DNA from: Methanothrix soehngenii GP6
Lineage (GTDB): Archaea; Halobacteriota; Methanosarcinia; Methanotrichales; Methanotrichaceae
NCBI RefSeq assembly: GCF_000204415.1
Contig: NC_015416.1
Span: 1,116,001 to 1,180,000, forward strand
Reading direction: 5' to 3'
Length of the DNA stretch: 64,000 nt
Each line of letters opens with the position of its first letter. Within the stretch, counting starts at the first letter, position 1. Positions 11,994 through 20,965 of the stretch are shown here, piece by piece. The notes beneath the pieces are model-generated. The model saw nothing but the letters and a program-made list of their open reading frames with translations, was not told where the DNA came from and searched no databases. A program made the translations under genes and the position numbers.

Positions 11994-12395
11994 CTAACCG
12001 CAGCCGCATCCACCTCCACCGCCTCCTCCTCCTGAGGTAGAGGCTGTGGTCCCCCGAGAGCCGGTGATGGGATACATGATATTCGTGTAGCCGGCCAGGC
12101 TCTTGTTTACCCTGTCTCTTGCATAGCTGGTGAGGTCAAGAACCTCTTTTCCGATGGAGGCAGATAGGTTCTGGGGCAGGGCAAGAGCGACATCGATCGA
12201 TGTGGAATTATTGGCCGCTGTGCTATTTATGAGGGTGCTGTTTATCAAGCTGGAATTCGTGGAGTTGATATTTGCCAGCAGATCGAGTTCACCCAGATAG
12301 ACCTCCGCCCCATCAGACGGCTGGGCCTGGGCGCTTCCTGCCAGAATGAAGAGCATCAGAGCCAGGCTCAAAGCAGAATTTTTTAGGGCTAACAT
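11994..12395 (-). CDS. Secreted Asn/Ser/Thr-rich protein with poly-Gly and CGCG tail
   Basis: Unrecognised 133-residue protein. A signal peptide (residues 1-24, hydrophobic core LALMLFILAG, cleavage after AQA) precedes several N-x-S/T sequons (about 43-65), suggesting a glycosylated exported protein. The C-terminus is eight glycines followed by C-G-C-G and the stop. AGGAGG lies about 13 nt before the ATG. It lies 104 nt downstream of cdhE on the same strand, behind a hairpin. The function is unknown; the paired cysteines on a flexible arm could bind metal or cross-link. Confidence 0.65.
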   Translation of the reverse strand: MLALKNSALSLALMLFILAGSAQAQPSDGAEVYLGELDLLANINSTNSSLINSTLINSTAANNSTSIDVALALPQNLSASIGKEVLDLTSYARDRVNKSLAGYTNIMYPITGSRGTTASTSGGGGGGGGCGCG

Positions 12396-13920: not shown

Positions 13921-15273
13921 TCACACCCCCATCTTGAGCCAGGCATTGGCTTCAGGCGTCTTGGCCTCTATTCTTCCCATCAGAGACTGGGTGATCTCAT
14001 GCAGATATGCGACCGCCGTTGGATGCATCATCATGAAGATGTCCACTCCAGCCATGGCCAGAGAGTAGCCGGTCAGAATCTCCCAGATCGGGCCTCTCAG
14101 CATTCTGTCTCCCCAGTCGGAGTCGTCCTTGTTCGGTGAACGGACCATCCAGGACTCTCTGACACCCCAGGCGTTGGTGGTGCCGGAGGACATGGGGAAT
14201 GTCAGCTCATCGTCGCCTTTCAGAGCGCCGAGCCTTATTCTCTCCATGTTGGAGTAAGCGAAGTCCAAGCCGTAGGCGAGGGCAGCGGTTGTCGGGTCCA
14301 TAACTATGGACTCGCGCGGAACACCAGCCACCTTCATCAGCTTTCTGTTCAGCTCCTTCTGAGAGTTGATCTCCAGCTGGGTCCAGGCGAGGCAGACATG
14401 TCCGTTGTCCACACAGGCCTTGCCGATCTTCTCCCAGTCCATGTTCAGGTTGGCGGAAGCGATAAGAACCCGCTCGCCCTGTGCGACCTCAGCTGCCTTG
14501 GATAGCACTACTGGATCCTTGTCTGGGTTGCCTGATCCGCCGATGCAGATGGGCACGTCCACAGCCTGCAGGACCTCTTCTACCGTCTTGACTGCATCCT
14601 GGGCGGAAGTGTCTTTGAGGAGCGGATCAGTGCTGATCAGGTGAACGGTGACCATGTCGGCGCCGAAATCCCTGACTGCCTTCTTGGCCCACTCGCCTGG
14701 TGAGTTGATTACATCCTCATAATGCATCTTGACTGCCTTGGCCATGCCGATGGGCATGTCGAAGACGTCCATGGTGATCTTGGGGGCATGGGGCATTGCT
14801 GCATCCGGGAAGAAGGGCATGGCCTTCTCGCCGCCCAGCTTTACCACATGGCCGCGGCTCCCGCCGTCTGCCTTGGTCGCTCCCAGGGTTACCTCCTGGA
14901 TGGGATGCTTCCAGGTCTTGTCAACGCCCACGCTGAATTTGGCGCTGGCTAACGCCGAGGCCACCTTAAAAGCGGGGACTGCGGCAGCGGCTGCTGCTAT
15001 GTCCTTAGGCGCCGGGGATATGGCCTGAGCGACAGCCACCGGCTGCATCAGGTTCTGTACTGGATATCCCACTGCCTTGGCGAAGTCCATGAGCTGCATG
15101 GCGATCTTGGCTGCCTGCTCTCCAAAGTAGTATGCGAAGAGCGGGCCTACGCCACCTGCGCCCACGTCCAGGTCTATCTCAACATCTCCCTCGATCTTCA
15201 GTCCCTCGAGGGATTGAACATTCATCTCTGTTAATGTCTTATTCAGGTCAGATAAAGTGATCTTGTCTGCCAT
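13921..15273 (-). CDS. cdhD: CODH/ACS delta subunit (corrinoid Fe-S protein, small)
   Basis: The TIM-barrel partner of CdhE in methyl transfer. An N-terminal segment with an acidic [26 protein letters not shown] precedes the barrel, which contains [14 protein letters not shown] and [13 protein letters not shown], typical of this family. The ATG at 15271-15273 ([10 protein letters not shown]) is preferred because GAGGGTGA is about 5 nt upstream; the frame is open to 15288. It sits 11 nt after cooC and 5 nt before cdhE. Confidence 0.96.
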
Positions 15274-15284
15274 TCGAATCACCC

Positions 15285-16043
15285 TCACAGGCCCAGTTTC
15301 CCGACGACATTCGCCATCTCTTTAACTGCAGGCGAATCATCGGGCAGGCCGGTCAATGGATCTCCCACTAAATCGAATTTGGCCAGGCTTTCATCATAGG
15401 GGATAGTGCCGATAACAGTAAGGCCCAGGCTGGTTGCGTTCTCGATGACCTTATCCCGCCTTCCGGTGGTGATCTTGTTCACAACCACATACAGATCCTT
15501 GTACTTCAGTCCCATCTCGCGGGCAATGTCCCGAATCCTCTCGCCGGTGGTAAGCCCTCTTCTGGACTCATCAGTTACGACGATAAGGTCGTCGAGGTCT
15601 GGAAAAATTTTCCTGCTGAAATGCTCGAGGCCCGCGGGCGAGTCGATTACAATCAGATCATAATCCTTGGCGGTCTTATCCATAATGGCTCGCAAAAGAT
15701 TATTGACATAACAGTAACATCCAGAACCCTCGGGCTTGCCCATCACCAAAAGATCGTAACCATCTTCTTCCAAAAGGATCTCAAAGATCTTAGCCTCGAA
15801 AAGCGCCTGCTTATCAGTGTCCGGTGAAGATGTGAACCGGGAATCCTGCATGAACTCCCTCATGTCGCCAACGGTCTTTTCCACCTTAGCGCCCAGCGCA
15901 TCTGCCAGGTTGGCATCAGGATCGGCATCGATAGCAAGGATTCGAAACTTTTTTTCAGAGTTATTCAGGTGTCTGATGAGCATTGCGGTCACTGCGGTCT
16001 TGCCGGTGCCGCCTTTACCTGTTATCGCTATTACTTTCCCCAA
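15285..16043 (-). CDS. cooC: CooC/AcsF-type nickel-insertion ATPase
   Basis: A MinD/ParA-like ATPase that helps insert Ni into the CODH C-cluster or ACS A-cluster. It has a deviant Walker [11 protein letters not shown] (residues 9-18), then [13 protein letters not shown], a Cys-containing [13 protein letters not shown] (the C-x-C proposed for metal binding in CooC), and [11 protein letters not shown] as Walker B. TTG 16041-16043 is the apparent start, with GGAAGG upstream. The position between cdhC and cdhD matches the order known in Methanosarcina. Confidence 0.92.
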
Positions 16044-16056
16044 AGTCTAGCCTTCC

Positions 16057-16230
16057 TTATTTTTTCGGTTTTATTACAACTTCCGCTACGTGGATGGATG
16101 CGCCCCTCAGTTCAATGGTCATTCCACCCGATGCTGCTGCTGGCATAGCGAAAGCCGGAGCTGCTGCGCCTGCTGCAGGTGCTGCTGCTGCGGCCGGAGC
16201 CGCTTCCTTTTTCTTAAGCTTAAGCTGCAT
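16057..16230 (-). CDS. CODH/ACS-operon Ala/Pro-rich small protein B (57 aa)
   Basis: ATG 16228-16230 to TAA 16057-16059. Three parts are visible: a basic N-terminus MQLKLKKK, an Ala/Pro/Gly/Met linker (about residues 10-36), and a beta-like end GGMTIELRGASIHVAEVVIK. Protein A at 16315 has the same plan and matching ends, so the two arose by duplication. GAGGGAGAGA lies before the ATG, and the gene is 13 nt from cooC, inside the operon. The flexible linker plus folded tail looks like a tether or assembly module for the CODH/ACS complex. This is inference; I know no assigned function. Confidence 0.8.
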   Translation of the reverse strand: MQLKLKKKEAAPAAAAAPAAGAAAPAFAMPAAASGGMTIELRGASIHVAEVVIKPKK

Positions 16231-16277
16231 AATATCTCTCCCTCACTCTTTGATCAGATAATCGCACTCGCAGGAAA

Positions 16278-16311
16278 ACCGCATCTCCCAAAAAAGGGAG
16301 AAAAAGGCGGT
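16278..16311 (-). promoter_or_regulatory. Intra-operon hairpin between the two small genes
   Basis: TCTCCC (16284-16289) pairs with GGGAGA (16296-16301) around a six-base loop, and ACCGC (16278-16282) pairs with GCGGT (16307-16311), giving a two-tier stem-loop. It lies between small proteins A and B and could act as a processing or attenuation point that lets cdhABC and cooC-cdhDE be made at different levels. Confidence 0.45.
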
Positions 16312-16314
16312 ACT

Positions 16315-16485
16315 CTACTTGGCGAGTACTACCTTATCTATGCTTATCTTGGCATCCTTCAGGATCAGCTTTATGCCGCCGGCGCTGCCGGACATGCTTA
16401 TGGCTGGTGCTGCTGCGCCTGCTGCTGCAGGTGCGGCTGCTGGAGCCGCCGCTGCAGGTGCCTTGGGTTTCAGTTTTAGCTGCAT
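16315..16485 (-). CDS. CODH/ACS-operon Ala/Pro-rich small protein A (56 aa)
   Basis: ATG 16483-16485 to TAG 16315-16317. It is a paralogue of protein B: N-terminus MQLKLKPK, then an Ala/Pro/Gly linker (about residues 9-36), then GGIKLILKDAKISIDKVVL. Paired identities at both ends (MQLKLK.K; GG..L.L..A.I....VV) show common origin. GAGGGTG lies about 7 nt before the ATG and cdhC ends 32 nt upstream. At this size and with this low complexity, automated gene callers can miss it. Function unknown; a partner or spacer for CdhC or the complex is the most economical guess. Confidence 0.8.
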   Translation of the reverse strand: MQLKLKPKAPAAAAPAAAPAAAGAAAPAISMSGSAGGIKLILKDAKISIDKVVLAK

Positions 16486-16517: not shown

Positions 16518-17924
16518 TCACTCGAGCACGCCGTCTTCCTGCAAGGCCTCGACGACCTGCATGAACTGGCCTTCGGTCAGGGCAAGCTCGGACTTGACGG
16601 TATCCATGTTGATGTCTCCGCCGGTCTTCTCGATATAGGCCATGACCTTCCCCTTGATATCATCATCGACCTCTTCAAGCTTCCAGCCCTCGGTGATCTT
16701 CTTGTTGTCCACCTTTCTGGTGACGCCATCCACCACGGGATGGTTGACCTTGAGCAGGAATGCCTTGAGGGCTGCGATGTCCTTGGCATCGTCCTCGGTG
16801 GCGATCTTGTCCATCATGTCAGCATCAATGCCTTCCTTTACCCTCTCTTTGAGGCCCTTGGACATCCAGACGATCCTTCTCCAGCCGCCATCCGCCTGGA
16901 GGAACTTGGGGGAGAAGTAGTAGAGAATACCCATGCCCAGGAAGCCCACGACCTGCTTGCCGCCGCCGGTCTGTCCTGCCATGGTGGAGAAAGGCAGTCC
17001 GTTGGGGGTTGCGCCCTTGAAGTCACGATCGGCAAGGCCGATGCCGTCAACCTCAGGCATATAGAATCCAATGGTCTCGAAGCAGCCACAGGAGGTGTGG
17101 GGTGCATCGAAGAATGTGTAGAGGAGCATTCTGCTGTACTCGCCGCCGGACCTCTGCTCAGCCATCTGATTAATGGCTTCATACTCGCCGCTGACCTCAT
17201 CCATCGCCGATCCCTTCTCAATGGCGAACTGGGGGCCCTCTGGGTCCACCTTGGCGGCAGCCCTGCCGTCGAACCAGGTGATAGCTCCGCACAGTGATGG
17301 CCTGTCCGGGGTGACCACGCAGGCGCTGGTGGGAGCGAATGCCTGGCAGAGAGTGCAGCCATAGAAGACATCCACATCCTCATCGTGCAGTCCCTTGGCG
17401 CGCTCATCGCGGGTCTTGTATACGGCCATGGCCTTGGCCAGCTCTTCCTTGACCTTTGCTGGATCGGTGACGATGGTGATGTCCATCTTCTCAATGAATG
17501 GCATCTCTGCCTTGTACAGGTCGATGACCGGGGCGTAGACCTCCTTCCAGGAGGTGACTCCCTTCTTCTTGAGACCCTTGCCAATCCTCATCCAGATATC
17601 GTATCTCTGGTTGAGGTGCATGAGGCCACTTATATAGGAGAGCAGGGCATGGTTGCGCCTCTCGATGATGGACTCCAGGTCTTTCTCGATCTTCTCGCCG
17701 CCGACTCTGAAGATCATGCCGAAGGGCATGGTGGTGCCCTCAGGGGTCTCTCCCAGATCCGGACCGATGACTGTTACCTTTCCATCCTCAATCTCGTCCA
17801 TGGGCGTGGCAAGCGACAGCTCAAATCCATCTGCCTTGGGACCGCCAAGCTCTACCCATAGATCGTCCTTTCTGATTCTCTCGCCCTCATACATGGGGGA
17901 TATGTCCAACTTTATATCTGCCAT
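16518..17924 (-). CDS. cdhC: CODH/ACS beta subunit (acetyl-CoA synthase)
   Basis: Carries the A-cluster where acetyl-CoA is made or split. The A-cluster cysteines fit the Methanosarcina numbering: C190 and C193 in FYGCTLC, and C279 and C281 in TSCGCFE. The glycine-rich TMAGQTGGGKQVVGFLG is also present. The 468-residue protein ends in a helical, winged-helix-like tail (about residues 425-468) rather than an Ala/Pro-rich tail. GAGGTG precedes the ATG. The gene sits between cdhB (40-nt gap) and small protein A. Confidence 0.97.
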   Translation of the reverse strand: MADIKLDISPMYEGERIRKDDLWVELGGPKADGFELSLATPMDEIEDGKVTVIGPDLGETPEGTTMPFGMIFRVGGEKIEKDLESIIERRNHALLSYISGLMHLNQRYDIWMRIGKGLKKKGVTSWKEVYAPVIDLYKAEMPFIEKMDITIVTDPAKVKEELAKAMAVYKTRDERAKGLHDEDVDVFYGCTLCQAFAPTSACVVTPDRPSLCGAITWFDGRAAAKVDPEGPQFAIEKGSAMDEVSGEYEAINQMAEQRSGGEYSRMLLYTFFDAPHTSCGCFETIGFYMPEVDGIGLADRDFKGATPNGLPFSTMAGQTGGGKQVVGFLGMGILYYFSPKFLQADGGWRRIVWMSKGLKERVKEGIDADMMDKIATEDDAKDIAALKAFLLKVNHPVVDGVTRKVDNKKITEGWKLEEVDDDIKGKVMAYIEKTGGDINMDTVKSELALTEGQFMQVVEALQEDGVLE

Positions 17925-18547: not shown

Positions 18548-20965
18548 TCACTTCTTGGCCCTTATCTTGCGCGGGATGTTCGTGGGATCGAAGCTGACGT
18601 CTGCGGGCCTGAGCGGTCCGGAGATGAACTTCTTCGCCTTCCAGTCGATCTTCCAGCCGTGCTTCTCCTCCAGCTCCTTCATCATCTGCGTCTGGTAGTT
18701 CAGGGGCAGATCCTTGACATCGCGGACAAAGAGATGCCAGTCATCGGGCAGCTTGCCGAAGTACTTCATGGAGATATCGCAGTAATGGGTCAGCTTGATT
18801 CCTCTGCCCTGGGTGTTATCAGACGGGCGGAAGCAGAGCTTTGCCATCTCCAGCATGGCCTCCTCCTTGGTCTCGGCGATATAGAGCATGGCTTCAGGTG
18901 CTGGCTCGATCTGCTGCATATTGCCGTTCTTGGCATCTATGACCATCCAGTCCTCGGGCTTGTCGGTCCTGCCCATAAATGTCCTGCGGTATATGACTGA
19001 GCTTGGCTGAACAACCACTGGAATGCCGAGCCTGTTAACGCCGGTAGCGATGGATGCTGCCTTTTGGGAGTATGCTCCCCAGGCCACGCCGCATGCTCCG
19101 ACCTTGGACATGATATAATCGGCGATATCATCGTAGTTGGCACGCTCATTTCTGTGAGCGAAGATGGTTGCCACCTTGATTGCTGCTCCATGAATGTGGG
19201 CATTGGCCACACATGAGCCTATGTTGCAGATGTTCCTGCCATCAAAGGCACCCTCGTACTGCTCCCAGATGGTCTTGCCATCTTCATCCTTATACAGGGA
19301 CATGTCCATGGCCATGCAGCCCGTGGCAACGACGATGTAGCCTCTGTCAACGAACTCCTTGGCGATGTCGTAGCACTCCTTGGTGCCGTTGGGATAATTC
19401 GAGCATCCTACCAGCGCTATAACTCCCGGAATCTGGCCAAGAACCAGGGGTGCACCAACTTTTCTGATCTCGGTATCGAGCACAGGTCCCCTGCCCGCTC
19501 TCATCTTGAACTTCTGGTTCCTGATATACTCGCGGTTGGCATACTCATAGAGCTTCAGTATGGGAATCTCCTGGGGGCAGGTCTGCTCGCATCTCTGGCA
19601 GCCCACACATACCTCATAGGTAGAGGAGAATGGTTCCAGATTGCCCTTCAGTGCCTCGCTTATCATCTCGCTGATCCTGATGTGGGGCGGACAGACGAAG
19701 GCACACTGATTGCACTCTGTGCATGTTGCCAGGGTATCCTTGAACTGCTGCTCGGTAAAGAGGCTCTCCTTCTTGTACTGCTCGCGCTTGGGCTTGACTG
19801 CAACCGCGGTCCTGATGGCCACCTCTCCGGCCTTTACTGGATCGAGGATTGCCACACCGGGCATCTTGAAGCTGACCAGATCCTCCACAATGGCATCGGC
19901 TGAGTCATTGGTCCTGTCGGGCAGGCCGAGCATGATCTTGTCGTTGCTGGCGATGACGGGGATGTGCCTTTGCTGGCAGTCCTCCAGCACATCGCAGAAT
20001 ACGCACTGCTCGTCCACAATCACTGTATCCATGATTCCGGCGCGAACCATCTTTCTCCACCAGCCCATGGCACCAGCCACCTTGGCCTTGGGTCCCAGGT
20101 TGGGGGGGATCCTGGATTCCCTGCCGGTCTCAGTGATCCTGGTGAGGTCAATGGCGGTGCAGCATACGCCGCCTATGTCAACCTTGTCCCAGAGATTATT
20201 GTTCTCGGCATAGATCATGGCCTCTGCGCCTGCTGCCAGGTTGTGGCCGTAGGCGATGAGAACGCCCTTGTTCTGATCCAGGGTGCCCATGCCGATCTCC
20301 ACCAGGGGTGCATCGGCTGCGCCGCGGGGCATATCGTAAGCCACCGTCTGCAGCATGTCGCAGATCTCCTTGCCCAGGGAGTCGATCATGCCGCCGTGCA
20401 GCGACTTGGACTCGAAGTCCATAAAATAGCCTTCCTGACCGGTGTGAGTGGCCGCCAGGAGCTGCACGATCTCCTCTTCGCAATACTCCAGGGCCTCGCC
20501 GAAGTCCTTGAGCGACTTGGGCTTGATCCCCAGGATGGTGCGAGTGAGGGGCGCATCCACCAGGATCTCGCTGCCCATATCGAAGGGCATATCTCCGAAC
20601 TTGTCCAGACACCAGTGGTAAAGGTGCCTGCCGTGAGCAGTATGGGCGCAGGTTCCCATTAAAACCGCAACCAGAACGATCTTACCGCAGGCAGCGGCCA
20701 TGTCAATGCCACAGGCCCCCTTCTTGTTGCCGGTCAGGTCGCATGGTCCATAGGTACAGAGGGTGCATGTATCATCTGCCGGTGAATACATGATCTTGTA
20801 CCGGTTACAAATCTTGAAGTCCCAGTCACGAAGCGTTGCCACACCTGGCTTGGGGAAGGGGCCCATCTCCTGGTCCCATTCATCCTCTTCTTTTACGACA
20901 GCTCCTATGTTGATCTGGACGTTCTTCATGTCCTCAACCGAAAAGCTGCCTTCTCTTGTTGCCAT
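18548..20965 (-). CDS. cdhA: CODH/ACS alpha subunit (CO dehydrogenase)
   Basis: The 805-residue Ni-Fe-S CO dehydrogenase of the complex, oxidising the carbonyl released from acetyl-CoA to CO2 and reducing ferredoxin. N-terminal cluster cysteines are in CTLCTYGPCDLTGNKKGACG (from about residue 67). HTAHGRH follows as the proton-relay His cluster. Two extra 4Fe-4S motifs, CTECNQCAFVCPP and CVGCQRCEQTCPQ (about 410-470), are specific to the archaeal enzyme. C-cluster cysteines occur in VGCSNYPNGTKE, NIGSCVAN and GACGVAWG. It is the first gene of the operon, with GGAAGAGGAGG before the ATG. Confidence 0.97.
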   Translation of the reverse strand: MATREGSFSVEDMKNVQINIGAVVKEEDEWDQEMGPFPKPGVATLRDWDFKICNRYKIMYSPADDTCTLCTYGPCDLTGNKKGACGIDMAAACGKIVLVAVLMGTCAHTAHGRHLYHWCLDKFGDMPFDMGSEILVDAPLTRTILGIKPKSLKDFGEALEYCEEEIVQLLAATHTGQEGYFMDFESKSLHGGMIDSLGKEICDMLQTVAYDMPRGAADAPLVEIGMGTLDQNKGVLIAYGHNLAAGAEAMIYAENNNLWDKVDIGGVCCTAIDLTRITETGRESRIPPNLGPKAKVAGAMGWWRKMVRAGIMDTVIVDEQCVFCDVLEDCQQRHIPVIASNDKIMLGLPDRTNDSADAIVEDLVSFKMPGVAILDPVKAGEVAIRTAVAVKPKREQYKKESLFTEQQFKDTLATCTECNQCAFVCPPHIRISEMISEALKGNLEPFSSTYEVCVGCQRCEQTCPQEIPILKLYEYANREYIRNQKFKMRAGRGPVLDTEIRKVGAPLVLGQIPGVIALVGCSNYPNGTKECYDIAKEFVDRGYIVVATGCMAMDMSLYKDEDGKTIWEQYEGAFDGRNICNIGSCVANAHIHGAAIKVATIFAHRNERANYDDIADYIMSKVGACGVAWGAYSQKAASIATGVNRLGIPVVVQPSSVIYRRTFMGRTDKPEDWMVIDAKNGNMQQIEPAPEAMLYIAETKEEAMLEMAKLCFRPSDNTQGRGIKLTHYCDISMKYFGKLPDDWHLFVRDVKDLPLNYQTQMMKELEEKHGWKIDWKAKKFISGPLRPADVSFDPTNIPRKIRAKK

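Follow-up and report, generated by a model that had tools for sequence, protein, structure and literature searches.

The cdh operon of Methanothrix soehngenii raises the question of what two short genes, placed between the gene for the ACS beta subunit and that for a nickel-maturation ATPase, are doing there. In the window (the whole stretch of 64,000 nucleotides analysed), the minus-strand gene order is cdhA-cdhB-cdhC-S1-S2-cooC-cdhD-cdhE. The cdhC gene (16518..17924, minus strand) encodes an ACS beta subunit with the A2/A3 core present and without a fused tail, and the gene for the cooC-type nickel-maturation ATPase (15285..16043, minus strand) lies immediately downstream of S2. The two short genes, S1 (tail-1; 16315..16485, minus strand) and S2 (tail-2; 16057..16230, minus strand), have 56 and 57 codons in the open reading frame list of the window. 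An earlier note had described them as genes with their own ribosome sites, and a purine-rich Shine-Dalgarno-like stretch was indeed observed upstream of each. The architecture it described was also found in both: a MQLKLK strand at the start, an Ala/Pro linker and a matching end motif of about 20 residues, GGIKLILKDAKISIDKVVLAK in S1 and GGMTIELRGASIHVAEVVIKPKK in S2. The two products share 47% identity over 55 amino acids. Elsewhere in the operon region, a 133-residue secreted-looking protein ending in SGGGGGGGGCGCG is encoded just 3' of cdhE (11994-12395, minus strand).

Searches of Pfam and NCBIfam with S1 and S2 returned no dedicated family in either database, and no publication on the pair came up in our literature searches. 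When the end motif was used as a profile, it matched only two places in the whole 3.03-Mb genome, namely S1 and S2 (E 2.7e-14 and 1.6e-13). Absence from relatives would have spoken against a function; the pair occupies this position in the genera of Methanotrichaceae wherever contigs reach the locus, the exception being one second operon with S1 only. The unique profile match and this recurrence across the family indicate that S1 and S2 are not chance reading frames. Nor do synonymous and nonsynonymous changes accumulate at equal rates. Within the genus, dN/dS in the end motif was 0.03 for S1 and 0.07 for S2, and in the first six residues counted from the LKLK anchor it was 0.05 and 0.01, respectively. 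Across the family, the end-motif values rose to 0.09 and 0.15, which are approximate because synonymous change is close to saturation at that distance. The tail motif of S1 and S2 is under strong purifying selection.

The identity of S1 was indicated by comparison with sequences of solved structures, among which its sole real match was CdhC of Methanosarcina thermophila (9c0s_E, residues 417-466, E 1.2e-5), with the final ~20 residues of S1 aligned to the CdhC end. This bears out the statement in the earlier note that some Methanosarcina CdhC proteins have an Ala/Pro/Met-rich arm and a similar beta-like tail at their end. The NCBIfam CdhC models NF003379 and TIGR00316 likewise match S1 only at their extreme C-termini. 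S1 carries the terminal motif of the archaeal CdhC tail, GG-[IVM]-K-x-x-[LFI]-K-[DN]-A-K-[IV]-x-x-[DE]-K-[VI]-[IV], and scored 36.6-39.3 bits with a profile of fused tails vs 19.7-24.0 bits with a profile of the micro-ORFs described below. S1 is not covalently attached to CdhC: it has its own open reading frame, and CdhC stops after a winged-helix-like domain. For this reason it is a detached relative of the CdhC tail and not a tail in place; judged by sequence, S1 is the CdhC C-terminal tail encoded as its own gene. When S1 alone was modelled with AF2, its C-terminus was locally confident but unpaired (pLDDT ~80, pTM 0.19), with zero DSSP strands.

The tail itself has already attracted attention. 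The first methanogen CODH/ACS structure, a cryo-EM study of the M. thermophila complex (PMC11474084), contains 4 alpha2epsilon2, 8 beta and 8 gamma-delta per complex. A CdhC extension of ~75 residues gave no density, was named as missing by the authors and is called by them 'of unknown function', with an expected role in the movement of ACS between CODH and the corrinoid protein. The same paper summarises the isolation, via detergent or limited proteolysis, of truncated beta, free gamma-delta and a beta(gamma-delta) subcomplex.

Of the 296 genomes in the phylum, 163 gave a match to the tail profile, as a rule within the CdhC reading frame. Fused tails were identified on CdhC of the Methanosarcinaceae, Archaeoglobaceae and Asgard types and on that of Methanomicrobiales and Bathyarchaeota; nearly all archaeal short-type CdhC examined carry one, and no bacterial-type ACS does. 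Detached tails were found in five lineages: Methanotrichaceae (f1), a Methanocellales MAG (f9, locus L133), family f10, an Altiarchaeota MAG (L137) and an unclassified archaeon (L158). Each of these lineages has a CdhC that finishes in a related winged-helix-like domain of ~55 residues, with the tail encoded separately downstream of it; this pattern supports the proposal of a detached tail and adds a reciprocal change in CdhC. A census of 178 non-identical CdhC/ACS sequences gave 114 with a fused tail and 4 more recognised as fused by eye, 40 of the winged-helix type and 20 of the bacterial type, counts that include related species and so are not independent events; many of the genomes are metagenome assemblies. 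A detached tail gene lies just downstream in 39 of the 40 winged-helix cases, and neither tail nor winged helix was seen in any of the 20 bacterial-type sequences. The lone exception among the 40 is an orphan second copy in the M. soehngenii genome. This solitary cdhC (G000:C1:1657344-1658744; L099 7345-8757) is 78% identical and of the winged-helix type; the surrounding 16 kb contain no other cdh or tail genes, and the neighbouring open reading frames are transposase-like. A winged-helix CdhC with no tail gene close by weighs against the explanation favoured below.

The detached tails differ from the fused ones at their start. All five lineages have an LKLKIKKK-like N-terminal strand on their detached tails, and none of the fused tails seen has one. 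In L137 (5245-5418) and L158 (4400-4600) this docking-type strand looks doubled, e.g. KPLKLHIKKKPLRVKVKK in L158. On the tree of the CdhC core, the winged-helix/detached state requires four changes; a single origin was rejected, with a p value of 1e-34 against a single clade. The swap could have happened repeatedly, or a 3' cassette could have been exchanged.

The C-terminal winged-helix-like domain of the window's CdhC (16521..16691, minus strand; residues ~412-468) has a net charge of about -9, and we propose it as the dock for the N-terminal strand of S1 and S2. The helical tail noted earlier at the end of CdhC appears in the AF2 model as a predicted three-helix domain (helices 421-434, 440-447 and 451-463, pLDDT ~84-93), and the chain stops without any wing strands. 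The net charge of this domain ranges from -5 to -12 in CdhC of the detached lineages, and the N-terminal strand of S1 and S2 is basic. Several HTH Pfam models match the CdhC end of L158, all below the cut-off. Beyond the ACS matches, Foldseek listed small winged helices, including 2xvc_A, in which CdvB is bound to a CdvA strand; this match was not significant (E 1.2; probability 0.87; TM 0.65 by target length). The CdvB winged helix misses one strand, which is supplied by the CdvA E3B peptide with a Kd of 6 uM, as reviewed in PMC5840170, and PMC12909875 also describes a CdvA strand completing the broken wing of CdvB. The acidic CdhC domain, the basic S1/S2 strand and the likeness to CdvB make wing completion a specific and testable proposal.

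S2 belongs to a different class. In the Archaeoglobaceae-like family f7, named from its gene context, a micro-ORF of ~20 to 40 residues was observed 3' of a cdhC that has its own tail, with a start that often overlaps the cdhC stop (TAATG). Most of these micro-ORFs bear L-K-G-A-x-I-x-x-x-E, and their synonymous change far exceeds the non-synonymous. Related micro-ORFs in L138 and L146 have a helix-like stretch ahead of the motif. S2, too, is encoded between cdhC and cooC as a short peptide on its own with an L-[KR]-G-A-x-I motif, and its end motif is kin to that of the Archaeoglobaceae-type micro-ORF at that position. In six of six cases S2 was better matched by the micro-ORF profile, at 21.2-33.3 bits, than by that of the fused tails, at 9.7-19.3 bits, which places it outside the fused-tail class, whereas S1 and the single detached tails fit that class in seven of seven tests. 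A recent duplication of one gene is thus rejected as far as the end motifs are concerned. The idea that the pair arose by duplication therefore stands only in part: the N-terminal strand and linker look shared, but the end motifs come from two older classes. Our best explanation is that S2 is another, older tail-type peptide encoded on its own, which shares the N-terminal strand and linker of S1.

With moderate confidence, we propose that S1 and S2 clip onto the CdhC winged helix through their N-terminal strand and thereby tether ACS in the ACDS complex. In the detached lineages CdhC ends in an acidic winged-helix-like domain from which the wing strand is apparently missing, and the basic LKLKLKKK strand with which S1 and S2 begin would most likely fill this wing, by analogy with CdvA E3B on CdvB. 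Pairing of this kind would replace the covalent link of the fused tail by a non-covalent one. Flexibility would come from the Ala/Pro linker, acting as an arm, and the strand motif at the end would dock elsewhere in ACDS, keeping ACS tethered during its swing between CO dehydrogenase and the corrinoid protein. We infer wing completion, docking partner and tethering, and the winged-helix-like fold is itself predicted; a tether or assembly role appears to fit most of the data.

As the dock, the extended N-termini of CdhA and/or CdhD are the likeliest candidates; both bear a weakly similar motif. In the window, these are the CdhA strand motif DMKNVQINIGAVVK (20891..20932, minus strand), in the same register as the tail motif, and a motif in the CdhD extension (15169..15219, minus strand). 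When the tail profile was compared with 116 windows of CdhA-E, the top non-self scores were the N-termini of CdhA (18.5) and CdhD (17.9), followed by 12.9; a rerun with fused tails only gave 17.9, 15.7 and 11.3, with column-permuted controls at 10.8-14.3. No tail-like motif above background was found on CdhB or CdhE in this profile comparison. The HHalign probability of either N-terminus vs the tail was 20-37%, below standard significance, so the likeness is treated as a lead. In a rank test, the tail HMM placed its top position near the N-terminus in 15 of 22 CdhA and 25 of 59 CdhD, at low scores, and CdhA and CdhD N-termini compared directly were hardly above background. The lead agrees with two further observations. 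In the ethanotroph CODH, alpha residues 1-30 are flexible, unmodelled and probably in contact with beta, gamma or delta (PMC11493965). The other observation concerns the CdhD extension, which all 20 bacterial-type ACS loci lack. Two genomes (G213 and G097) hold a bacterial-type locus without the CdhD extension, yet also an archaeal-type operon with both tail and extensions. The similar strand motif of the CdhA and CdhD N-termini is weak evidence that the tail may link alpha with beta and delta, each of which is present eight times per ACDS complex. A broader picture, which we regard as tentative and rather doubtful, is that archaeal ACDS might be knitted together by one repeated strand module (CdhA-N, CdhC-C and CdhD-N) plus free peptides, the CdhC copy having been cut loose in several lineages and reclipped by completing a broken winged helix.

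A second operon in genus g8 bears on the partnership of S1 and CdhC. In G011 it consists of cdhABC-S1 followed by HdrE- and HdrD-like genes, without cooC. In G009, cdhC is cleanly missing from it (cdhAB only) and S1 is intact, differing from the G011 gene by one base in the tail. In G012, cdhC is missing and the S1 remnant is degraded, which suggests from sequence that S1 loses its role without CdhC. In G009 the loss of cdhC may be recent, or the tail may have been converted; an intact S1 without cdhC does not follow simply from a partnership of the two and counts against the explanation we favour. The cdhAB(C)-S1-HdrE-like-HdrD-like operon was seen at L098 (G011:C2:846000-856000), L096 (G009), L254 (G012) and L255 (G014). 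Some g8 genomes lack cdhC there, and the layout suggests CO oxidation tied to a heterodisulfide-reductase-like pair. As a separate observation, family f5 (L100 in G060:C35; also G050 and G070) encodes a 1375-residue open reading frame with a bacterial-type ACS as its C-terminal portion; the large N-terminal partner to which this ACS is apparently joined is probably CODH.

These data also bear on other readings of the two genes. S1 and S2 might be freely acting regulators: as released mimics of the tail they would compete for its docking site and tune ACDS assembly or ACS-CODH contact instead of acting as permanent tethers. Separate genes with their own ribosome sites would suit such a role, and the S2 class coexists with a fused tail in Archaeoglobaceae-like genomes, as expected for a modulator. 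We nevertheless consider it unlikely: CdhC is without a fused tail wherever S1 exists, so that S1 is the sole tail-1 available, and the co-occurrence of the N-terminal strand with the CdhC winged helix points to attachment. It is similarly improbable that the winged helix and the detached tails are linked by history only, as one 3' cassette spread by recombination, with the strand binding another target, e.g. CdhD or a neighbouring complex. Winged-helix types of similar sequence in separate clades are what cassette transfer would give, and G009 retains S1 without cdhC in its cdhAB-hdrED operon; however, cassette transfer would move both halves jointly anyway, and the degraded S1 of G012 suggests dependence on CdhC. 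Quite remote is a role as nickel-insertion maturation factors acting with the adjacent CooC-type ATPase, despite the location directly between cdhC and cooC both in the family and in the f7 micro-ORF loci, because the tail is fused to CdhC where cdhD, not cooC, comes next, and S1 is present in cdhABC-S1-hdrED operons without cooC. Low-complexity chance reading frames or plain decay products of cdhC, to which the compositionally biased Ala/Pro-rich linkers might point, are already refuted by end-motif dN/dS of 0.03-0.15, conserved position across the family and profile E-values of ~1e-14.

Tethering by S1 and S2 remains our preferred reading. In several lineages the CdhC extension, a part of the acetyl-CoA-splitting enzyme, has been split off naturally as a separate gene. 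This offers a direct genetic handle on how a giant methane-forming complex holds together, and short peptides can be used to probe what the extension binds and what it does.

Among known systems, the closest is the archaeal CdhC C-terminal extension (NF003379, TIGR00316; residues 398-472 of chain E in 9c0s/9c0t, unmodelled). S1 resembles it in linker composition, in the terminal strand motif and in its position directly after the CdhC core, but is a separate gene with an extra N-terminal LKLKIKKK-like strand, and the CdhC of Methanothrix ends in the winged-helix-like domain instead. The N-terminal extension of CODH alpha (CdhA; PMC11493965) is likewise short and conserved in archaea, is flexible when not in the full complex and bears a strand motif of weak similarity; it differs in being fused to CdhA, and its similarity to the tail is below standard significance. 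The archaeal CdhD N-terminal extension also bears a weakly similar strand motif, and it accompanies the CdhC tail and is lacking beside bacterial-type ACS; it is, however, fused to CdhD, acidic where the tail is basic and usually preceded by a helix-like stretch. Finally, CdvA E3B on CdvB (2XVC) provides the precedent for the proposed short strand that would fill a strand-lacking C-terminal winged helix and so couple two proteins. CdvA and CdvB are unrelated proteins in an unrelated process, the fold similarity to the CdhC domain is not significant, and the pairing suggested for CdhC is an analogy and not a demonstrated homology.
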